A DNA stretch of 64,000 nucleotides from Arenimonas sp. (lineage in GTDB: Bacteria > Pseudomonadota > Gammaproteobacteria > Xanthomonadales > Xanthomonadaceae): contig NZ_JALHQI010000006.1 of the NCBI RefSeq assembly GCF_022842045.1, positions 1-64,000 of the forward strand, read 5' to 3'. How positions within the stretch are numbered: the stretch's first letter is position 1; every line of letters starts with the position of its first letter. Of the stretch, positions 1,662 through 11,276 are shown one piece after another. A model generated the notes under the pieces. The model made no database searches. It was given only the letters and a program-made list of their open reading frames with translations, and had not been told where the DNA came from. The translations under genes were made by a program, and so were the position numbers.

Positions 1662-1775
1662 GCCGGATGGTGCATGCGCGAAGTGGTTGCCGGGCCGCCA
1701 GCGGCCGTTCCCGGCGGGCTTTGGCTTTGGTTTTTCGTCGTAAGATGGGACCTTCGAGGGGTAGGGCCGATCACC

Positions 1776-3737
1776 ATGTCCAGCGATGACGCAGGCAGCG
1801 CGGGGACGCCGCCACCGACCGTTTTCCTGAGTTACGCCCGCGCCGACCAGGCCCAGGCCAGGCAGTTGGCTCAGGCGCTGGAGCAGGCGGGACTGCGGGT
1901 CTGGTGGGACACGCTGATCGAGGCCGGCGCCGCCTTCGCCAAGACCATCGAGACGGCGCTGGCCGCCAGCGATGCGGTGATCGTCCTGTGGTCCCGGCAA
2001 TCGGTTGACTCGGACTGGGTGCTGGACGAGGCCGCCCGCGGCCGCGACCTCAAGAAGCTCGTGCCGCTGTCGATCGATGGGACCGAGCCGCCCCTGGGCT
2101 TCCGCCAATACCAGTCGATCAGGCTGGACCACGGCCAGGGGGCCGTCGCTCCGGCGTCCCTGCAGGCGGTGCTCCGTGCGGTGTCCCTGGTTGCCGGGCG
2201 CGAGCCCTTGCCGCGGCCGCCGGCGGCAGGGGGCGCCCCCTTGCCGGTGGATGCCTCGCGCCGCGGCTTGCTGATCGGTGGCGGTGCCGCTGCGATCGCC
2301 GTGGCCGTGGTCGGCGTGGTGGGCTGGTCGCGCGGCTGGTTCGCCGCGCCGGGCGGCGCGGAGGGCCTGCGCCGCATCGCGGTGCTGCCCTTCGAGAATC
2401 TCAGCGGTGATCCCGAGCAGCGCTACTTCTCCGATGGCCTGACCTCGGAAATCCGGGTGCGGTTGTCGCGCAATGCGCTGCTGCAGATCGCCGGGCAGAC
2501 GTCTTCGGAACTGGTGGCCAACGGGCAGCTGGATAGCCGCGCGATCGCGCGCGCACTCGGCGTTGATTTCCTGCTGGGCGGCAACGTCCAGAAGGCGGGT
2601 GGCCGGGTCAAGGTCGCTGCCGAGCTCGTGGACGGCAGCACCGGCCTGAGTCGCTGGGCCGACAGCTGGGAGCGCCCGCTGGCCGATGTCTTCGCCGTGC
2701 AGTCGGAGATCGGCGCCGCCGTCGCCGGCGCGCTGTCGGCGGCGGTCGAGGGTCCCGACGCCGGCGGCGCGAAGATGCCCGGTGGCACCGACGACGTCGC
2801 GGCGTTCGACGCCTACCTCCACGGGCGCGCGCTGTACGAAGCCGGTATCGACGAGGCCAGCGATCGCCGCGCCCTGCGGTACTTCGAACGTGCGATCGAG
2901 ATCGACGAGCGATACGCGGGTGCACATGCGGCACGGGCCCGTGCGCTGGTGGTGATCGGCAACCTCTACGCGGCCCACGACGAACGCGTGCAGGCCTACG
3001 ATGCCGCGGAAGTCGCCGCGCGCGCCGCGGCGACCCTGGCGCCGGACTTCGCGGAAGCCTTTTCCGCGCTGGGCTTCGCCCTGGCCAGCGGCAAGCTCGA
3101 CATGCGGGGCGCCCGCGAGCCGTTCGATCGGTCCTACGCACTGGCGCCCGGCAACGCGGACATCCTGGCCCGCTACGCGACCTTCCGCTCCAACCTGCGC
3201 GACCACGCCCGCGCGGCCGAGGTGATCCAGCGCGCGGCCACGCTCGATCCCCTGAACGCGCGCGCGTTCCGATCGCAGGGCGACATCCGCCACAACGCGG
3301 GCGACCCTGCCGGTGCGATCACGGCCTATCGCCGGGCCATTGAACTCAACCCGACCCTGGCCGGCGTGCACGCCTCGATGGGTTTCGCGCAGCTGATGGC
3401 CGGCGCCGACGACGATGCCCGCGCCTCTTTCTCGAAGGAGCGGGGCGCCGTGCGCCGGCTTCCCGGGCTCGCCATCCTGGCCCACCGCGCCGGCGACCGC
3501 GCGGCGGCGGAGGCCGCACTGGCGGAGTTGGTCGCCGAGCAGGGCGACAAGAGCCACTACCAGTACGCGCAGGTTTACGCCCAATGGGGTGACGCGGCGA
3601 AGGCGCTGGCGTCGCTGCAGGCGGCGTGGGACCTTCGCGACGGCGGCATCATGTTGATGTACGCTGACCCGCTGTTGGCAGGGCTTCACGGTACCGACGG
3701 GTACCTCGCGCTTGCGAAATCCGTCGGCTTCGCATGA
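1776..3737 (+). CDS. TIR domain - transmembrane - TolB-like - TPR protein
   Basis: This 653-residue protein has four parts. A TIR domain (~14-135) starts with VFLSYARAD and keeps the W-x3-E position of the TIR NADase glutamate (W81, E85). One transmembrane segment lies at ~165-184. A TolB-N/FlgO-like domain (~199-320) starts at IAVLPFENLSGDPEQRYF. A tetratricopeptide array (~370-640) ends the chain. The TIR part should be cytosolic and the TolB/TPR part periplasmic. Similar TolB-TPR proteins in this lineage carry adenylate cyclase or HTH modules at the N terminus instead, so TIR may act as an output or adaptor module. I chose ATG 1776 because the TIR fold begins just after it and GAGGGG lies upstream. 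A possible -10 (TAAGAT) is at 1741. Its substrate and role are unknown. Confidence 0.85.
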   Translation: MSSDDAGSAGTPPPTVFLSYARADQAQARQLAQALEQAGLRVWWDTLIEAGAAFAKTIETALAASDAVIVLWSRQSVDSDWVLDEAARGRDLKKLVPLSIDGTEPPLGFRQYQSIRLDHGQGAVAPASLQAVLRAVSLVAGREPLPRPPAAGGAPLPVDASRRGLLIGGGAAAIAVAVVGVVGWSRGWFAAPGGAEGLRRIAVLPFENLSGDPEQRYFSDGLTSEIRVRLSRNALLQIAGQTSSELVANGQLDSRAIARALGVDFLLGGNVQKAGGRVKVAAELVDGSTGLSRWADSWERPLADVFAVQSEIGAAVAGALSAAVEGPDAGGAKMPGGTDDVAAFDAYLHGRALYEAGIDEASDRRALRYFERAIEIDERYAGAHAARARALVVIGNLYAAHDERVQAYDAAEVAARAAATLAPDFAEAFSALGFALASGKLDMRGAREPFDRSYALAPGNADILARYATFRSNLRDHARAAEVIQRAATLDPLNARAFRSQGDIRHNAGDPAGAITAYRRAIELNPTLAGVHASMGFAQLMAGADDDARASFSKERGAVRRLPGLAILAHRAGDRAAAEAALAELVAEQGDKSHYQYAQVYAQWGDAAKALASLQAAWDLRDGGIMLMYADPLLAGLHGTDGYLALAKSVGFA

Positions 3738-3764
3738 TCCACGGGGGAACAGAGGAGAAGCACC

Positions 3765-4052
3765 ATGCGTAACGTTTTCGCCACCTGCCTGGTGGTTGGT
3801 CTTGGCCTGGGCCTGGCGGCCTGCAAGCGGCCGGCGGAGCCGGCGGCGGACGTCGCGCCCGACCCGCAAACCGGCACGGTCGAGCGCAGCGCGCCCGAAG
3901 AGCAGACCGGTACCGTCGAACGCACGACGCCCGAAGAACAGACCGGTACGGTCGAGCGCACCGCGCCCGAGGAGCAGACCGGCACGGTCGAACGCACCGC
4001 GCCGGAAGAGCAGACCGGCACGGTCGAGCGCACCACGCCCGACGAACAGTAA
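3765..4052 (+). CDS. Small lipoprotein with five tandem 12-residue repeats
   Basis: This 95-residue protein has a signal peptide with a lipobox ending at Cys20 (GLAAC). No Asp follows the Cys, which suggests outer-membrane sorting. From residue ~35 the mature chain is five near-identical repeats of the type QTGTVERTAPEE, encoded by a 36-bp tandem repeat. The repeats are acidic, Pro/Thr-rich and hydrophilic, probably disordered, with one Arg per unit. The gene lies 27 bp after the TIR-TolB-TPR gene, with GAGGAGAAG as ribosome binding site, so the two may be co-transcribed. It converges on the protease operon. No family was recognised. Repeat number could vary between strains by slippage or recombination. 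Confidence 0.8.
   Translation: MRNVFATCLVVGLGLGLAACKRPAEPAADVAPDPQTGTVERSAPEEQTGTVERTTPEEQTGTVERTAPEEQTGTVERTAPEEQTGTVERTTPDEQ
3894..4052 (+). repeat. 36-bp tandem repeat in coding sequence
   Basis: Five consecutive units, each coding for QTGTVER + two variable residues + PE/DE, make up most of the lipoprotein reading frame. Units differ mainly at third-codon positions and in the Ser/Thr-Ala/Thr dipeptide. This means amplification followed by synonymous drift rather than a very recent expansion. The first unit begins slightly before the coordinate given. Confidence 0.8.
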
Positions 4053-4072
4053 CCGCGCGTCGGTCCGCGCAG

Positions 4073-4098
4073 CCCGGGTCGCGTCAGCGCGATCCGGG
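4073..4098. terminator. Hairpin between convergent genes, stop codon in loop
   Basis: CCCGGGTCGCG (4073-4083) pairs with CGCGATCCGGG (4088-4098), with a single G-U pair. The 4-base loop begins with the TGA stop complement (4084-4086) of the serine protease gene. There is no T-tract, so this may be a bidirectional transcript-end hairpin rather than a classical intrinsic terminator. Confidence 0.5.
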
Positions 4099-5220
4099 CG
4101 CTGCGGCCGGGACCGGTACGCGCACCACCTCGCCGGACTTGGCCGCGGCCTTCGCCTCGGCCACCCAGGCTTCGTAGTGCGACACGCGGGTGTACACCGC
4201 CGGCTTGCCCGCACCGCAGCCCTTGCCGCCCGAGACGATGCCCACCAGGCTGCGCCGGCCTCCGTCTTCCTCGCGGGTCAGCGGCCCGCCGCTGTCGCCC
4301 TGGCAGCTGTCCTTGCCGACTTCGATGCTGCCGTCCGCCGCCAGGCTACCGGCGCAAAGCGCGCCCGGGCCGTAGAAGGCCCCGTATTCGGCCTCGCACA
4401 GCGCATCGGGCAGGTAGTGCAGGGTCAGCTGCTGCAGCTCCGCCGGATTGCGCTGCAGTCGCTGCGCGCTGTCCAGGCGCGTCACCACCGCGCGCGCACT
4501 GCGCTTCCCCATCCAGCCCCATCCGGTGACGCGCAAGGCCTCGCCCGCGTCGAAGTCGCGGTCGGCGGCACCCATCAAGGGCACCGCGGCCAGCCGCCCG
4601 CTGGCCTCGAATTCGGCAATGCGCGGATCGGTGGCCACCCGGACCAGGGCGATGTCGTCGAGCTTCGTCGCCTTGGAATAGCCGCCGTGGATGACCACGG
4701 CATCAATCGCGAACAGACCATCATCCACGCTGATGTTCTGGGTCCCCAGGCGCAGCCGGCGGTCGGTGAGCACATTGCCCTCGCGTCCGTCGAAGCCGGG
4801 GATATTGTCCACGCAGTGCGCTGCGGTCGCGATCCAGCCGTCACCGATCCAGGAGCCGCCGCACTTGTGCGCCAGCTCCCAGGGCGCGCGCTCGGCCAGG
4901 TGGATCTTGCACGGATCCTGGTGGTCCAGGGTCGCATCGTAGGCGCGGTCGGCGTCGTCGTAGGCGGGCGTGGACAGGATCTCGACCTGCCATGGCGCGG
5001 AGCCCGGGCGCGCCGGTTGGCCACCGACGATTCGTGTGCCGGCGTCGTCGTGGCGTGCGCGCCGGATTCCGCAGTCTTCGGCGGTGACCAGGGGCTGCGC
5101 CGGCAAGGGCGCCGCGACCGGAGCGGCGGCCTGCGGCGCCTGGCCGCGATCGCCGCACGCCGCCAGCAGCACGGTAACCAGAAGGCCGGTGAACAGGGTG
5201 GGGCAGGTGGCATGGCTCAT
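4084..5220 (-). CDS. Trypsin-like (S1) serine protease lipoprotein with zymogen-type activation site
   Basis: This 378-residue protein has a lipoprotein signal (LLAAC, Cys22, Gly at +2), which suggests outer-membrane anchoring. After a ~40-residue linker the S1 protease domain begins at R63-IVGG, the classical trypsinogen activation sequence. The catalytic triad is visible: His135 in TAAHC, Asp189 in LDDIALV, Ser310 in GDSGGPL. Asp304 sits six residues before the serine, the S1-pocket position that gives Arg/Lys specificity. ATG 5220 overlaps the stop of the upstream caspase gene as ATGA, so translation is coupled. It is the last gene of the three-gene operon. Substrates are unknown; activation by the partner caspases is inference. 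Confidence 0.92.
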   Translation of the reverse strand: MSHATCPTLFTGLLVTVLLAACGDRGQAPQAAAPVAAPLPAQPLVTAEDCGIRRARHDDAGTRIVGGQPARPGSAPWQVEILSTPAYDDADRAYDATLDHQDPCKIHLAERAPWELAHKCGGSWIGDGWIATAAHCVDNIPGFDGREGNVLTDRRLRLGTQNISVDDGLFAIDAVVIHGGYSKATKLDDIALVRVATDPRIAEFEASGRLAAVPLMGAADRDFDAGEALRVTGWGWMGKRSARAVVTRLDSAQRLQRNPAELQQLTLHYLPDALCEAEYGAFYGPGALCAGSLAADGSIEVGKDSCQGDSGGPLTREEDGGRRSLVGIVSGGKGCGAGKPAVYTRVSHYEAWVAEAKAAAKSGEVVRVPVPAAAPGSR

Positions 5221-7235
5221 GGCAGTTCCTCGGGGGTGGCGAGTACGGTGGACACCTGGGCAGACCAGTCGCCGACCGCGGCGACCCCCAGGTCGCGCCG
5301 GCCCTCGCTGCTCGCGCACAGCAGGCGCTCGAGTGGCGAGGTGCAGGCGGCGAGGTCGCGCGTGCCGGTCCCGGCTTGCTGGAAGGCATCGGCGCGGATC
5401 GGGCGGGCGCTGGCAAGCACGACGAATCGATAAGCCCCCGGGGTGTCGAAGGACATCGCCGAGCGCCGGTACGGCTGGTTGGGCGGCAGCGGCTGGTCGA
5501 ACTCGCCCGGCTTGGGCAGCACCAGGTCGACGGCGTTGAACGGGTCGATCGCGAGCACGTAGACATAGGCGGGGCGCGTCCCGCGATTGATCACGGTCGC
5601 GGTGATCCGCTCGCCGACGCCGATCCGGCGCACGCCGCCGGCCTCCAGCGCCGGGCAGGCGGTGGGGCGATAGCCGTCGGCCGCGATGCAGGCCGCGACC
5701 GGGAACGGATCGGCGTCGGTGCCGCCGGCGCTGGTGCGCAGCGAGAGCAGCTGCTGCACGCGCGCGATCTTGCGCAGGGCATCGGCCAGGCGGTCCGCGA
5801 ATCCGGGGTCGTCGGCGCGCCCCAGCGTGGCCGCCAGCAGCGTGCCGTCATCGGCGCGCAGCGCGATCGCATCCGCATCGCCTTCGGCCGGGAGAAGGCG
5901 GGTCGCGCCGTTCGCCGCCACTTCGGCGAAGCCGGTCGCGCGCAGCGCGGCCTCCGCGGCGTCCCGGGCCGGGCCTGCGGGCAGGTCGATGGCCACCGCG
6001 AGGGTGTCCGCCGGGAGGAAGTGGGCGACCTGTTCCGCGACCAGACGGTCCGGGAGCGGACCCTGCGGCGGGGTGTCGAGCGCCAGCGTGGCGGTGGTGG
6101 CGTCGACGGCAGCGACCGTCGCGGTGGAAACGCTGGCCCGCCGCGCCACGGCATCGGCCTGGCTGGCGTAGAGAGCGAAGCGCGAACCCCGTGTGATGCC
6201 GCCGGTCACGCCCGCCTGGAGCGTCGCCTTGCCGCCGGCCTGCGTGACGTCGTAGAGCACCGCGGTGCGCGAGCGCGCGCCGAACACGGCCGTCAGCGCA
6301 CCTTCGGCCGACGGGGTCTGCGCGACGTGGCCGCGGGCGGCGACGCGCAGGCGCACTTCGTGGATCAGGTCGCCGAACGTCGCGTCGCGCATGCCGGGCA
6401 TGCGCAGGGTGTCGAGCAGCGCGGTGGTGAACACGCCGGCGCGCGCACCAACCGCACCGCCGCCGGTTTCCTGGGCCTCCTCGCCGTCCTGTGCGGCGGC
6501 CAGGTGCACCCAGTAGCCGCCGCCGCTGGCGGCGCCGCGCGGCATGGCCTCCGGCACCGGCGGCGTGGCCCCGGCGAGTGCGGGTGCGCTGCGGGACAGG
6601 CCCGCGGCGCCGGCCCGCGTGGCGGTGGCCGAGTTGCAGGAGTCGAACACGCTGACGAAATAAAGGCCGGCCACGGTCACGCGGTCCTTGAGGACCTTGA
6701 GCTCGACGTCGAAGATATCGCCCGGTGCCCCGTCCGGACTGCGGGCGTCGGCCGGCAGCAGGGTGCCGTTGTAGCCGGTGTCCTGGTCGCGGGCCTCGTC
6801 GTCGCTGTAGCGCGAACCGTGGCCTGCGAAATAGAACAGCAGCGTGTCGCCGGGGCGAAGCGTGTCGATCCGCTGCCCCAGCGCCTCCAGGATCCGGGCC
6901 CGGGTCGCGCAGTCGTTGGTCAGCGTGGTGGTGAATGCGTTGGAGGAATCACAGGCGCCGGCCGCGGGCACGTCCACGTCGACGCCGTACAGCTCGGCCA
7001 GCGCCTGCTTGAAGCGCAAGGCGTCGCCAACCGCGCCGCGCAGGTCGGAAAACACGGCGCCCGGGACCCGCGCATCCGAATAGCGGTAGCGGTCGATGCC
7101 GACGATCAGGGCATGGATTCGGCGGGTGTCCTGCGCGGGGGGCGCGGCCGGCGACTCCGCGCCGCCCTCCGGTGCCCCGCTGCAGCCGCACAGCAACACC
7201 GCGAGAAGACCGGTGACCAAGGCAAGGCGCGTCAT
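5217..7235 (-). CDS. Caspase-like (C14) lipoprotein with C-terminal DUF4384-like domain
   Basis: This 672-residue protein starts with a signal peptide and lipobox ending at Cys18 (LLCGC). The caspase-like domain begins at ALIVGIDRY (~42). Its catalytic His139 is in FYFAGHGS and Cys200 is in FVSVFDSCNS. The family norm is DSCHS, so the residue after the Cys is Asn. A long middle region lacks clear motifs. The last ~170 residues (IGVGERITATVINRG onward) resemble DUF4384 beta-sandwich domains that commonly follow bacterial caspases. GCAAGGAGG precedes ATG 7235, which overlaps the upstream caspase stop as ATGA. Metacaspase relatives usually cleave after Arg or Lys; specificity here is not tested. 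Confidence 0.88.
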   Translation of the reverse strand: MTRLALVTGLLAVLLCGCSGAPEGGAESPAAPPAQDTRRIHALIVGIDRYRYSDARVPGAVFSDLRGAVGDALRFKQALAELYGVDVDVPAAGACDSSNAFTTTLTNDCATRARILEALGQRIDTLRPGDTLLFYFAGHGSRYSDDEARDQDTGYNGTLLPADARSPDGAPGDIFDVELKVLKDRVTVAGLYFVSVFDSCNSATATRAGAAGLSRSAPALAGATPPVPEAMPRGAASGGGYWVHLAAAQDGEEAQETGGGAVGARAGVFTTALLDTLRMPGMRDATFGDLIHEVRLRVAARGHVAQTPSAEGALTAVFGARSRTAVLYDVTQAGGKATLQAGVTGGITRGSRFALYASQADAVARRASVSTATVAAVDATTATLALDTPPQGPLPDRLVAEQVAHFLPADTLAVAIDLPAGPARDAAEAALRATGFAEVAANGATRLLPAEGDADAIALRADDGTLLAATLGRADDPGFADRLADALRKIARVQQLLSLRTSAGGTDADPFPVAACIAADGYRPTACPALEAGGVRRIGVGERITATVINRGTRPAYVYVLAIDPFNAVDLVLPKPGEFDQPLPPNQPYRRSAMSFDTPGAYRFVVLASARPIRADAFQQAGTGTRDLAACTSPLERLLCASSEGRRDLGVAAVGDWSAQVSTVLATPEELP

Positions 7236-10200
7236 CTTGCCTCCTTGCGCAGCACCAGCGTGCTGGGACGCGGGTTGAAGTCGAACAGGGCAGGCTGCTG
7301 GACGCGTCGCGCCGGGGCATCGGCCGGCAGGTCGTGGAAGGTGATCGCGCGCGCACCTTCGCCGGTCGGGGCCAGGCGTCCGACCCGGGCATCGTTGGCC
7401 AGGCCCGGCATGCGCCGGATCGAATACGCCAGCCATTCGTCGACGCGGATCTCGCGATCCCCATCCAGGTCGGCCTGGCCGGCGCCCAGCCCGTCGACCG
7501 CCAGTGCATAGGTCAGCAGGCCCTGCCCCAGGCGCGCGTCCTCCAGCGCGACGTCGTCGGCCTGGGTCGCGGCGAGGATGCGGATGCCTTTGTCGTAGGC
7601 CAGCTGGCCCAGCCCGCTGTCGCCCATCGGCCCCGGCTTGAAGCGGCCATCGGACACGCTGGCCGCCGAATGGCAGGCGTCGATCACCAGCGCGATCTCG
7701 CCCGCCTGCATCCGCTGGAACGGCGCCACGAGGTCCGCCGTGGAGAACACCGTGGACAGGTCCGGGGTCGCCGAGCCCTCCGGCCAGCGGCCGTCGCCGG
7801 GGATCAGGTAGAAGTCGCCGCGCGGACTGGCCCAGCCGTGGCCGGAGAAGCTGACGATCACCGCGTCGTCGGGCGTCGCCGGCTGCAGCATCCCCGCCTC
7901 GATGCCTTCCGCGCGCAGGGCGGCGAGCGTGGCGTCCCGGCCCTCATCGCCGGCCAGCAGCGAAAGCACGCGGCCCAACGTCGCCCTATCCACGCGCGCA
8001 CGCGCGCCATTGGCCTGGCGCTCGGCGGTGAGCACCAGCGAGTGGGTTTCGTAGCCGGGAATGGCGGCCAGCTGCGAGGCCATCAGCCGCGCATCGGCCG
8101 CGGCGAAGTTCAGCCGGAAGCGCGGGGTGTCGTAGTCATCGATGCCGATGGCCAGCACGTAGGCGCGACGCGGGCGCGGCACGACGGCCGGGCGAGTCCA
8201 GGCCAGGGTGGTGGTTTCACCCTTGATGCGGTCCTCGTTGAAGGCATAGGCCGAGAACACCTGGGCCGCATCGGCCTGCGTCGGCAAAGGCACGGTGAAC
8301 TCAAGCGTGTGCATGCCATCGGCCGAGGGCACGACGTTGCGCGCGCGCCAGTCGGTGATGTCGGCGCCTGCGGCGTCCTGCTGGCGAGGCTCCATCGCGA
8401 CCAGCCGGCCGTTGCGGAACAGCCGGGGGTTGTAGAGGCCCGAGCGGGTCTTGCCATTGGCCGCGTCGGTATCCACGCCTTCGCTCAGCTCGACGGTCAC
8501 CACCGCCTCGCTGGCGTCCTGGCCCGGCCGCACGCCGGTGATGCGCGCCTGCGGCAGCACGCGGTTGAGGCTGGCGATCGACGGTAGTGGCTTGAACGCG
8601 TCCGCGCAGGTGCTGGCGGCACGGCAGTCCAGCAGCCGGCGGTACAAGCCAGGTTCGTAGTAGTCGCGCATGAACGTCTGCGATGCCAGGCTCTGCCACG
8701 GCGCATCCGGGACGAGCCAGCGCACCAGCCGGGTGTCGGCCTCCAGGTTGGTGTCGTAGCGGCCATCGGGTGCCACCGCGAAGTAGCGCCCATCCGGGAA
8801 GACGAAAAGCGTGAGCTGTAGGCTGCCGTCCTCGTTGTCGTGGAAGCGGATGGCGCCGTCCACATTGGCGGCCCAGAGCAACCGGCTGTCCTCGATGAAG
8901 CCTGCCCGGATGATGTTGCCGTCGTTCATGTCCCGGCGGACGATCCGGCCGTCCTCGATGGCGATCAGTTCCTGGCGCTCGAGGCCGAACACCCGGGTGT
9001 TGCTGGCCGCGACGTTGTTGGCGCCGAATCCCGCGAACTTGCGGATGTCTCCCGTCGGGTCGACGTCGACGACGTAAAGCTCCGAGTCGTCCCCGCCGCG
9101 CAGATAACTGTGGGTGAACAGGAGCCTCTCGCCATCGGGCGTGAAGTCCAGCGCAGTGATTGGGTTGGACATGCCGAGGCGGTTCGCAGGTTGGTCATCC
9201 GCAATGCGCACCCGCTCCTGCTGGCCCCGGACCAGCGACTCACCGACGACATCCAGCAGCCAGACGCGAAGGATCGCCATGGCCGGCGCGTCATCCCTGG
9301 CGACCCATTCCTGCGTCGCGACCGCCAGGCGGCTCCGGTCTGGCGACAGCCTGAGCGCGGTGATCTCCTGGCCACCCCAGTCGGGCTGCTCCATCGGCTG
9401 CCAACCGCCGCCGGAAGCGCCCCCTCCGGCGCGATAGAGGGATATGGCCGCCCCTTCGTCCGCCGCGGACTCGTCGTCGACGGACATCATGGAAGGATTG
9501 ACGGCGAACTCGGGCCGGGGTCCGGTGCCCAGGAAACTGCCCTGTCCGTCGAGCGACACCATCTGCTGGTAGCTTTCGAGTCCGCTGCAATTTTCCGCGC
9601 GGGCACAGTCGGGATCCACGACCAGCACCGGGGCGCTTCCCAGCACACCGTGCGTGGGGCTGCTGCCCGGCATGTCCCAGTCGCTCAAGATCGCGAAGCG
9701 GTCGTCGTCGAGCATCAGCACTTCGATGTAATGCCGGTCAAGGACCATGGGGGGGGCCGCCGAGTTTCCGGCGATGTCGATCATTTCGACCCGGGTGCCG
9801 TTGAAGGCATTGGTTGCCTCGAGCTTGACCAGCCGGCGACCATCGGCGCTCAGGCCGAGGTCATAGAGCATGCTGCGAAGGTTTCCCTGCAATGTCCGCG
9901 GCGCCGCCGAGCCGTCGACCGCCTCGAGTTGGATGAGGTAATTGCACTGCTCGGTGCGGTCGCAATCGTAGTCCGGTGTGCTGGCCACGATGAGCGTCAT
10001 GTCCAGCGATCCCGGGCGGTACGCCACCGGGCGCAGGCGGCCGTCGGGCGACAGCGGGAAGTTCAAGGCCGCGTCCGTGCGGCCGTACGTGACCGGACTG
10101 TCGGCTCCCGGCAAGGTGCCGTCGGGCGTCACCGCCCGGGTGGCCAGGTTGAGCGAGTAGCTGCATCGCCGTCCTTCACCCAGCGCGGCCTTCGGGCAAA

Positions 10201-10591
10201 TCTCACCCTCATTCTGCGGGTTGACGGTGTACAGGAACGACAGGCGTTCGCCGTCCTCCTCGGCCCGGATGTCCTGGAACCAAAGGAACTTCGCTTCCGA
10301 CGGGTCACCCTGGACGGGAATCCGCGCCTGGTCGACGATCGCGCCGGTAGCAACGTCCCAGATCACGATCCCGCCATCTTCCCCGAGCGACAGCAGATGG
10401 CTTGAACCGTTGAGCCATTTCACCGCGACCACGGGCTGTGCGTGGCCGAACTGAAGAACGATCCTGGGTTCGAGCGCTGAATCCGCAGATGCGGTCGCCT
10501 CGGGAGCCAACGGTCCGGCCGGCTCCTGCCCGGAACACGCCGCGAGCAGCAGTGCGGCGCCGCAGCAAAGAAGCAGGCTGGCAATACGCAT
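7232..10591 (-). CDS. WD40-like / caspase (C14) lipoprotein with EF-hand-like loop
   Basis: This 1119-residue lipoprotein (LLAAC, Cys19, Ser at +2) has an N-terminal propeller-like region with WD40 features such as GIVIWDVATG. A central beta-rich part follows. The caspase domain starts at ~808 (YVLAIGIDDYD). His918 is in SFSGHGW and Cys973 is in VIDACHSAA, the canonical DACHS motif. At ~1041-1052, DLDGDREIRVDE fits the 12-residue EF-hand calcium loop (acidic at 1, 3, 5 and 12, Ile at 8). I chose ATG 10591 over one 27 bases upstream because GGAG precedes it and the signal peptide begins there. It is the first gene of the caspase-caspase-trypsin operon. The family is clear; the function is unknown. 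Confidence 0.88.
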   Translation of the reverse strand: MRIASLLLCCGAALLLAACSGQEPAGPLAPEATASADSALEPRIVLQFGHAQPVVAVKWLNGSSHLLSLGEDGGIVIWDVATGAIVDQARIPVQGDPSEAKFLWFQDIRAEEDGERLSFLYTVNPQNEGEICPKAALGEGRRCSYSLNLATRAVTPDGTLPGADSPVTYGRTDAALNFPLSPDGRLRPVAYRPGSLDMTLIVASTPDYDCDRTEQCNYLIQLEAVDGSAAPRTLQGNLRSMLYDLGLSADGRRLVKLEATNAFNGTRVEMIDIAGNSAAPPMVLDRHYIEVLMLDDDRFAILSDWDMPGSSPTHGVLGSAPVLVVDPDCARAENCSGLESYQQMVSLDGQGSFLGTGPRPEFAVNPSMMSVDDESAADEGAAISLYRAGGGASGGGWQPMEQPDWGGQEITALRLSPDRSRLAVATQEWVARDDAPAMAILRVWLLDVVGESLVRGQQERVRIADDQPANRLGMSNPITALDFTPDGERLLFTHSYLRGGDDSELYVVDVDPTGDIRKFAGFGANNVAASNTRVFGLERQELIAIEDGRIVRRDMNDGNIIRAGFIEDSRLLWAANVDGAIRFHDNEDGSLQLTLFVFPDGRYFAVAPDGRYDTNLEADTRLVRWLVPDAPWQSLASQTFMRDYYEPGLYRRLLDCRAASTCADAFKPLPSIASLNRVLPQARITGVRPGQDASEAVVTVELSEGVDTDAANGKTRSGLYNPRLFRNGRLVAMEPRQQDAAGADITDWRARNVVPSADGMHTLEFTVPLPTQADAAQVFSAYAFNEDRIKGETTTLAWTRPAVVPRPRRAYVLAIGIDDYDTPRFRLNFAAADARLMASQLAAIPGYETHSLVLTAERQANGARARVDRATLGRVLSLLAGDEGRDATLAALRAEGIEAGMLQPATPDDAVIVSFSGHGWASPRGDFYLIPGDGRWPEGSATPDLSTVFSTADLVAPFQRMQAGEIALVIDACHSAASVSDGRFKPGPMGDSGLGQLAYDKGIRILAATQADDVALEDARLGQGLLTYALAVDGLGAGQADLDGDREIRVDEWLAYSIRRMPGLANDARVGRLAPTGEGARAITFHDLPADAPARRVQQPALFDFNPRPSTLVLRKEAR

Positions 10592-10745
10592 GTTGTTGCT
10601 CCGAATCGTGCTGGCCATGCAACCGCCGGGTGCCGCCGGCCGAGGATAGCACTCCGTGCCGTGGGCCCCTGCGGCGGATGGCCTGGGCCGGCGGTCCTGT
10701 CAGCGAGGGAGACGGTAGGCCGAGGGAGCGAGGTTGGAGCGGGCC

Positions 10746-10773
10746 AAAGAAAAAGGCGGCCGAAGCCGCCTTT
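10746..10773 (-). terminator. Intrinsic terminator after peroxiredoxin gene
   Basis: On the - strand, AAAGGCGGC and GCCGCCTTT pair around a TTCG tetraloop, followed by TTCTTT. It lies ~24 bases after the peroxiredoxin stop and separates that gene from the caspase operon downstream. Confidence 0.85.
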
Positions 10774-10796
10774 CCGATCGTCCGGCGGTGGCCCGA

Positions 10797-11276
10797 TCAG
10801 GCAAGGTGCTCGAGCACGTACTCGGCCGAGGAGACCTTGAACTCGCCGGGGGCTTCGACGTGGAGCTGCTTGACGATGCCGTCCTCGGCGTAGAGGGCGA
10901 AGCGCTTGGCGCGCAGGCCCATGCCGAACGCGGTGGCGTCGAGCTGCAGGCCCATGGCCTGGGTGAAGGCGCCATTGCCGTCGGCCAGCATGTGCACGCC
11001 GGCGGGCACGTCCTGGCTCTTCGCCCAGGCGTCCATCACGAAGGCGTCGTTGACCGACAGGCAGGCGACCTCGATGCCGCGCCGGGTGAACTCGTCGAAA
11101 TGCTCGACGTAGCCCGGCAGGTGCTTGGCCGAGCAGGTCGGGGTGAACGCGCCCGGCACCGCGAACAGCACCACCTTCTTGCCGCCGAACAGTTCGGCGG
11201 TGTCCACGGCCTGCACGCCGTCCTTGAGCATGTTGAGGGTGGCCTGGGGAATCTTGTCGCCGATCTGGATGGTCAT
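10797..11276 (-). CDS. Prx5-type peroxiredoxin
   Basis: This 159-residue cytosolic thiol peroxidase reduces hydrogen peroxide and organic hydroperoxides. The peroxidatic cysteine is Cys48 in PGAFTPTCSAKHLPGY, the signature of the Prx5/AhpE-like glutaredoxin-dependent group. Cys72 (EVACLSVND) is the only other cysteine of note. The length is typical of the stand-alone enzyme, with no fused glutaredoxin. GGAG lies ahead of the ATG. The gene is divergent from hsp20 and has its own terminator, so it is a single-gene unit. Confidence 0.93.
   Translation of the reverse strand: MTIQIGDKIPQATLNMLKDGVQAVDTAELFGGKKVVLFAVPGAFTPTCSAKHLPGYVEHFDEFTRRGIEVACLSVNDAFVMDAWAKSQDVPAGVHMLADGNGAFTQAMGLQLDATAFGMGLRAKRFALYAEDGIVKQLHVEAPGEFKVSSAEYVLEHLA

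Follow-up and report, generated by a model that had tools for sequence, protein, structure and literature searches.

The three protease genes that the original prediction had treated as a stand-alone operon at positions 4084-10591 belong to a larger unit. In the window, a stretch of 64,000 nucleotides from Arenimonas sp. (contig NZ_JALHQI010000006.1), a TIR gene, a repeat lipoprotein gene and the three protease genes form one mobile block of about 9 kb (1662-10796, both strands) that lies between pbpC, which ends at 1661, and prx, whose stop is at 10797, and that is seen present, absent and inverted. The borders of the predicted operon were too narrow, as a convergent TIR-TM-TPR gene and the repeat lipoprotein gene reside in the same block. 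Gene content, lipoboxes, catalytic residues and linkage are read directly from the DNA, and the assembled parts would suit a cassette that signals from the envelope to the cytoplasm, likeliest for defence against phage or rival bacteria, a reading to which we give an even chance.

The proteases are encoded in tandem on the minus strand and comprise a WD40 propeller-caspase lipoprotein (7232-10591; Pfam WD40 2.7e-6 for one repeat, Peptidase_C14 2.1e-5), a caspase lipoprotein with a DUF4384 region (5217-7235; Peptidase_C14 1.2e-15; DUF4384 5.9e-5, which at 23.5 bits is below the Pfam cut-off of 27) and a trypsin-like lipoprotein zymogen (4084-5220; Trypsin 2.7e-39). As predicted, each carries a lipobox without Asp at +2, with the lipobox Cys at C19 in the WD40-caspase (LAAC/S), C18 in the caspase (LCGC/S) and C22 in the trypsin (LAAC/G), giving Ser, Ser and Gly at +2; the trypsin has an Asp at +3. 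According to our own hydropathy calculation a hydrophobic stretch precedes each lipobox, and the assignment as bacterial lipoproteins (lipobox plus N-terminal signal peptide) is made by motif and hydropathy only. Lipoboxes were also found, by regular expression or by eye, in the examined orthologs of the three proteases; four WD40-caspase orthologs (L038, L032, L037 and L039) have boxes of the form A-[AL]-G-C, which a strict expression does not flag. By the +2 rule only, the lipoproteins may be placed in the outer membrane or at the surface. Both junctions in the window are the ATGA overlaps of 4 bp that had been described; this overlap joins the WD40-caspase and caspase genes in 7/7 genomes with a caspase ortholog, and the caspase and trypsin genes overlap in six of the seven, with the caspase stop of G278 positioned 38 bp ahead of the trypsin start.

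The identification of two caspase-like proteins and a trypsin-like zymogen is borne out by the Pfam matches and by intact catalytic residues. Both caspases score above the Pfam cut-off for Peptidase C14 and have invariant His-Cys dyads: H918/C973 (DACHS) in all seven aligned WD40-caspases, one of which is a partial sequence, and H139/C200 (DSCNS) in all four aligned caspases. The trypsin, a member of peptidase family S1, has an intact H135/D189/S310 triad and a zymogen site, R63/IVGG, that predicts activation cleavage between Arg63 and Ile64 (5029-5034, minus strand). Catalytic residues are kept across 12 aligned trypsins, and the triad, R63/IVGG and the pocket Asp304 (KDSCQGDSGG) are present in all six window-type sequences that cover these sites; a seventh (L056) is cut before the activation site and has the pocket Asp. 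PADLOC assigned its generic model 'caspase' to both caspases and nothing to the trypsin, and the NCBIfam EACC1-associated caspase model gave the two caspases 34.8 and 29.6 bits against a cut-off of 140. The predicted structure of the WD40-caspase is poor (pLDDT 52), too low for use. A DUF4384-trypsin fusion in L050 has a moderate signal (blastp 1e-5; hhalign E 1.6e-4, probability 50%), and Pfam made no DUF4384 call there.

The TIR-TM-TPR membrane protein is encoded on the plus strand (1776-3737; Pfam TIR_2 1.4e-23, TPR_17 4.4e-14) by a gene whose reading frame is open from 1674. It is composed of a TIR domain at about residues 13-138, an invariant RR pair with a single TM helix, and a TolB_N-like and TPR region at residues 198-653, where TolB_N scores 0.068 only, below the Pfam cut-off. 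We aligned 20 full-length members of its clade, the window included and the other 19 being 45-84% identical to it. Of 294 family genomes, 14 contributed 15 of these loci; the others are L035, L037 and one each from G681, G682 and G708, which represent two further families in the order. The RR pair ahead of the TM helix is invariant in 20/20 of the aligned proteins and has the look of a Tat motif, which would put the TPR half outside; from this RR-TM pattern we infer that the TPR half is periplasmic. Equally invariant is Glu85, the putative catalytic Glu of the TIR domain, which lies four residues past Trp81, the spacing of AbTIR. Weak matches of the TIR region to solved bacterial TIR proteins (E 1.5e-4 to 4.9e-4) include one to AbTIR, an NAD+ hydrolase, in which the alignment ends before the Glu. 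The TIR region also matched several TIR-containing PADLOC models (best SAVED_TIR, 1.1e-11; ThsB, 5.5e-5), and NCBIfam Thoeris_type3_ThcB4 gave it 33 bits against a cut-off of 220. The AF2 model has a mean pLDDT of 77, with the linker at 143-196 under 50; Foldseek matches listed among the best 50 were all TPR or like helical-repeat proteins, including Tom71 bound to chaperone tails, and are therefore uninformative on the TIR part.

Co-directional with the TIR gene and 27 bp behind it is the gene for a small lipoprotein of 95 aa (3765-4052, plus strand; lipobox LAAC at C20), which contains five 12-aa repeats, QTGTVERxxPxE, with one Arg each (3867-4046, plus strand). Beyond its first three residues, the mature lipoprotein of the window has Arg or Lys only as the repeat Arg. 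A pattern that required QTGTV and allowed R or L at the Arg position found 31 repeat units in seven loci, with QTGTVE in 31/31 and Arg thereafter in 30/31; for these units, which are not independent, pS is 0.493, pN 0.074 and pN/pS 0.15. Orthocaspases, the caspases of prokaryotes, are described in the excerpted text of PMC6426788 as cutting after positively charged residues. An Asp-pocket trypsin and prokaryotic caspases would thus both be expected to cut after the Arg of QTGTVER, and the evenly spaced, conserved single Arg sites look like those of a substrate.

The same gene order, which the original prediction had proposed to seek in other genomes, is present in all seven distinct genomes with a caspase ortholog: the window, G278, G110, G129, Lysobacter prati (L037), an Arenimonas MAG (L035) and UBA2363 (L039); the block is not known from pathogens. 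For this count L036 was taken to be G278, L038 to be G110 and L035 to be L098 (G832), each pair being counted once; a scan of genome contigs with the caspase alignment gave five loci. The WD40-caspase precedes and the trypsin succeeds the caspase in 7/7 genomes; the repeat lipoprotein comes next after the trypsin in the six genomes whose contig runs on, and the TIR gene follows in the five of those that extend to it, while in G278 trypsin, lipoprotein and TIR genes are on a second contig. In the family, the caspase query matched 29 of 297 genomes at E <= 0.001, near full length in four only (its own, G278, G110 and G129; next best E 7.7e-21). The WD40-caspase was found in 5/294 at 1e-15, namely the same four and a contig-end piece in G023, and the trypsin in 10/294 at 1e-20, with the window type confined to the four caspase genomes. 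Orthologs of all three thus co-occur in the same four of 294-297 family genomes, consistent with the unnamed, exported and tightly packed protease set that had been envisaged. A caspase beside a TPR protein in L034 (G033), considered as a second example, was dropped: judged by eye, the caspase has no signal peptide, and the TPR protein there is of a different kind.

Mobility of the block is evident at its insertion site. The gap between pbpC and prx is about 100 bp or less in seven same-genus genomes (L099-L105), representing the empty site, and the same site in L098 contains all five genes in the opposite orientation. In L051 the site holds the TIR gene alone, with an unrelated ORF beginning at the expected start of the lipoprotein, and in G278 pbpC adjoins the TIR, lipoprotein and trypsin genes on one contig. 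A pbpC match was obtained in 12 of 21 same-genus genomes, and the comparison covers eight of these regions plus the window, L051 and L056, with G826 left out. Neither pbpC nor prx flanks the block in the stretches of G110, G129, L. prati and UBA2363 that were examined. Chance adjacency is ruled out, since the gene order is conserved across genomes and the block behaves as a unit, whether retained, inverted or missing. In the window its neighbours resemble house-keeping genes rather than a defence island, as judged by eye and by blast, with Pfam applied to prx alone. A phage or plasmid origin was also considered and rejected, no close relative of the caspase being found in phages (one match, 28%), plasmids (82 records, all below 60% identity, one covering at least 80% of the query) or viral contigs (five distant matches, 25-26%); PHROG gave four weak matches for the TIR protein and none for any of the proteases or for the small lipoprotein.

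In the wider TIR clade, 16 of the 18 assessable loci have a trypsin gene converging on the TIR gene (15 in the window's family, and G708); the trypsin is absent beside TIR in L051 and L052, and L079 and L081 end too soon to be assessed. In each of the ten family genomes where a trypsin was matched at 1e-20, that trypsin is next to a TIR gene of this clade. Vertical synteny cannot by itself account for the pairing, because the pairs occupy different neighbourhoods (pbpC/prx, purA-like and others, by eye), although the loci within L046/L047 and within L054/L055 have common neighbourhoods and are not independent of each other. A small lipobox protein is encoded behind the TIR gene in 19/20 loci (one cut by a contig end), L051 being the locus without, and falls into types with TGTVER in eight loci, GGDK[VI] in ten and TDHGN repeats in one (L050). 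These types match those of the trypsins: TGTVER/QTGTVER lipoproteins pair with the operon-type trypsin (R/IVGG, pocket Asp), the TDHGN lipoprotein pairs with the L050 trypsin, and trypsins of the GGDK loci have a Sec-like start, a long acidic stretch, no R/IVGG and Ser replacing the pocket Asp. Among the trypsin-less loci, L051 has lost the lipoprotein and L052 keeps one TGTVER. For ten of the 16 trypsin-TIR pairs, the stretch read has no caspase of this type, and all ten of these trypsins are without R/IVGG, so that a caspase-to-trypsin step cannot be general; the caspases would then be an addition to a core that may consist of trypsin, lipoprotein and TIR.

The original prediction had seen no gasdermin-like or other pore gene. 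The SLATT-type gene of L037 indeed found no match in the genome of the window, but a stand-alone protease operon free of any possible death effector is not supported, as the convergent TIR gene, a possible effector, is part of the block. Of the related TIR loci, 9/20, the window not among them, contain a DUF4231/SLATT-type gene upstream of TIR or, in L080, upstream of the trypsin. Pfam was applied to three of these nine, with only L037 over the cut-off (DUF4231 26.1 vs 24.7), and the others were called by blast. A motif would suggest a SLOG label for the SLATT-type gene of relatives, for which Pfam gave none. SLATT domains are predicted pore-forming effectors in the consulted portion of PMC7159879. 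Three more distant TIR-TPR proteins (L082-L084, 32-36%), with no neighbour matching the trypsin queries, were left out of the clade. The order-wide TIR search gave 19 of 200 genomes at 1e-50, of which five are clade members (the window's own, G010, G681, G682 and G708) and the rest more distant, most matching by the TPR part; class-wide, 3/369 genomes matched, one of them outside the order and by the TPR part only.

Comparison of the protein halves revealed a mosaic. For the TIR domain of the window, identity is 82% with L049 versus 47-51% with L032, L035, L037, L038, L052 and L079, whereas for the periplasmic half it is 79-86% with these same six versus 43-51% with L049; L051 and L056 have both halves in common with the window (83-87%). 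The AU test rejects trees in which the groups are kept together contrary to these identities (TIR domain, p 0.011; periplasmic part, p 6.9e-5), with p values that are optimistic because the groups were picked after the identities were seen, and branches inside the operon group have weak support in the periplasmic tree. The identity pattern and AU tests indicate an exchange of the cytoplasmic half, with the periplasmic half remaining linked to the repeat lipoprotein and to the proteases in loci that have them. Residues 25-600 of the WD40-caspase are of two types (68% identity within window/L038, 52-82% within L032/L035/L037/L039 and 32-37% between them), and residues 601-1119, the caspase half, are 73-89% identical throughout and 73-85% between the two types. 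The sequence comparisons suggest that sensor and effector halves were exchanged around a constant core.

Several known systems share features with the block. The conflict systems of Kaur et al. 2020 (PMC7159879) have the same parts list as the relatives of the block (caspase, trypsin, TIR and SLATT); in the excerpts of that paper they are centred on MoxR-vWA, iSTAND or GTPase genes, caspase and trypsin are mutually exclusive in the vWA effector position, and no lipoprotein protease operon is named. In contrast, all three block proteases carry lipoboxes, and Pfam found no MoxR-vWA, STAND or GTPase core gene in the block, its flanks being assessed by sequence and blast only. Thoeris, as outlined in the consulted part of PMC7272460, joins a TIR protein to a partner effector with SLOG or TM domains, a likeness to the SLATT-carrying relatives; here, however, the TIR protein sits in the membrane and has a TPR half, its partners are proteases and a lipoprotein, and no SIR2-SLOG, macro or TM ThsA gene is present among the window neighbours called. 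In the nuclease-protease pairs and Canu (PMC12799240, in part) a trypsin or caspase activates a partner proenzyme and TPR domains occur in some loci, but the block contains no MBL-type nuclease gene and its proteases carry lipoboxes. The Xanthomonas-type metacaspase is, in the excerpted PMC3501461, a caspase-fold protein of the same order that combines TPRs with a polysaccharide deacetylase domain and has trmE as a neighbour; none of these features was found in or beside the window caspases. Searches of the open-licence literature yielded no system in which a TIR-TPR membrane protein is coupled to exported lipoproteins of caspase and trypsin type. We would place the block within the caspase/trypsin/TIR toolkit of known conflict systems, its new element being the outside-in layout.

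For the signalling cassette, we infer cleavage, activation and phenotype as follows. The WD40 propeller of the first caspase would sense an envelope insult, the caspases and/or the trypsin itself would open the trypsin zymogen at R/IVGG, and the active proteases would cut the repeat lipoprotein after each QTGTVER, freeing short peptides or altering the state of the lipoprotein. The periplasmic TPR domain would read this cleavage and turn on the cytoplasmic TIR domain, which would consume NAD or make a nucleotide signal, leading the cell to die, stall or give warning; where a relative has a SLATT-type gene, the TIR signal would open a membrane pore. In insects, Spaetzle-Toll signalling uses an extracellular cascade of zymogen serine proteases, a cleaved ligand and a single-pass receptor with a cytosolic TIR domain. 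Tentatively, the block might be an outside-in immune pathway laid out like insect Toll, in which a protease cascade cleaves a lipid-anchored repeat ligand whose fragments activate a single-pass TIR receptor, with exchangeable WD40 sensor and TIR effector halves. This is an analogy, with no homology claimed: the sensor half is TPR rather than LRR, and caspases are added.

We count in favour of the signalling cassette the block with its empty site and inversion, the trypsin-TIR pairing, the matching lipoprotein and trypsin types, the lost or reduced lipoprotein of the trypsin-less loci, the swapping of halves, the repeat pN/pS, the weak AbTIR match and the cleavage preference of orthocaspases, and against it the TIR gene without proteases in L051, the ten trypsin-TIR pairs without a caspase, the house-keeping-like neighbours, the poor WD40-caspase model, the weakly supported periplasmic branches and the lack of a match to the L037 SLATT-type gene in the window genome. 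An unlikely alternative is that the proteases attack foreign or damaged envelope proteins directly (phage tail proteins, rival toxins or misfolded proteins), with TIR as a back-up suicide device and the lipoprotein as a decoy or inhibitor rather than a messenger. Three lipobox proteases with intact sites, a mobile block and a TIR gene that can stand alone would all fit such a role, but the convergence of trypsin and TIR genes in nearly every assessable locus and the tracking of protease and lipoprotein type by the TIR periplasmic half argue for a direct link, and the regular Arg sites are substrate-like.

Quite unlikely, too, is envelope-stress or cell-to-cell signalling through a lipoprotein peptide, in which TIR would make a regulatory nucleotide or act as a scaffold rather than a killer. 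Released 12-mer repeats would resemble pheromone precursors in layout, and TPR folds bind peptides, as in the Tom71 structures among the Foldseek matches listed; against this, the putative catalytic Glu is kept throughout the TIR clade, and the swapping of sensor and effector halves would be typical of conflict systems. Surface proteases for nutrition or predation in Lysobacter-like bacteria, without a signalling role, are highly improbable: the order of these bacteria contains predators and the lipoproteins may be located in the outer membrane, yet a patchy mobile block, a zymogen and caspase architecture and linkage to TIR are unexpected for feeding enzymes.

Bacterial caspase, trypsin and TIR defence systems are described, in the portions of the literature consulted, as centring on cytoplasmic sensing. 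If the signalling cassette operates as proposed, bacteria could start a death or defence program before the genome or toxin of an intruder enters the cytoplasm, and the origin of extracellular protease-to-TIR wiring would become a testable question.

At a TIR-clade locus with a TDHGN-repeat lipoprotein, a 705-aa protein (L050:6393-8510) joins an N-terminal part, similar to the DUF4384-like region at the C-terminus of the window caspase, to a C-terminal trypsin, and on its sequence this protein is possibly a fusion of operon neighbours. At a locus with the TIR gene but without the protease operon, the repeat lipoprotein is replaced by a 132-aa ORF of lower GC3 (L051:7703-8101), the start of which is preceded by a similar ribosome-binding stretch. 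Genes of the DUF4231/SLATT type, a predicted pore class, adjoin the TIR or trypsin gene at L037:15539-17500 (Lysobacter prati), L032:3573-5540, L053:3473-5245 and L080:2047-3882; they form two divergent families, and their proteins carry a GITGHR/GVTAHR-like motif at the N-terminus.

A caspase-like gene pair different from the window pair (L033:6897-11689, genome G033) encodes two exported-looking proteins, one of 392 aa with a Sec-like start and one of 1205 aa with a lipobox-like start, and exported caspase pairs may have more than one origin. The window's genome also has a third caspase-domain gene (G000:C5:59639-60316; Pfam PF00656, E 1.6e-19), which is unlinked.

Just upstream of the intact WD40-caspase gene of an Arenimonas MAG lies a 30-codon ORF (L098:3949-4041, equivalent to L035:5887-5979) whose start, MRIADCLLMGC, resembles the WD40-caspase signal peptide and whose end, PSSLVLRKGRP, resembles the WD40-caspase C-terminus. 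Judged by these likenesses, the ORF is apparently the collapsed leftover of a second WD40-caspase gene, which would fit turnover of the proposed envelope-sensor gene.
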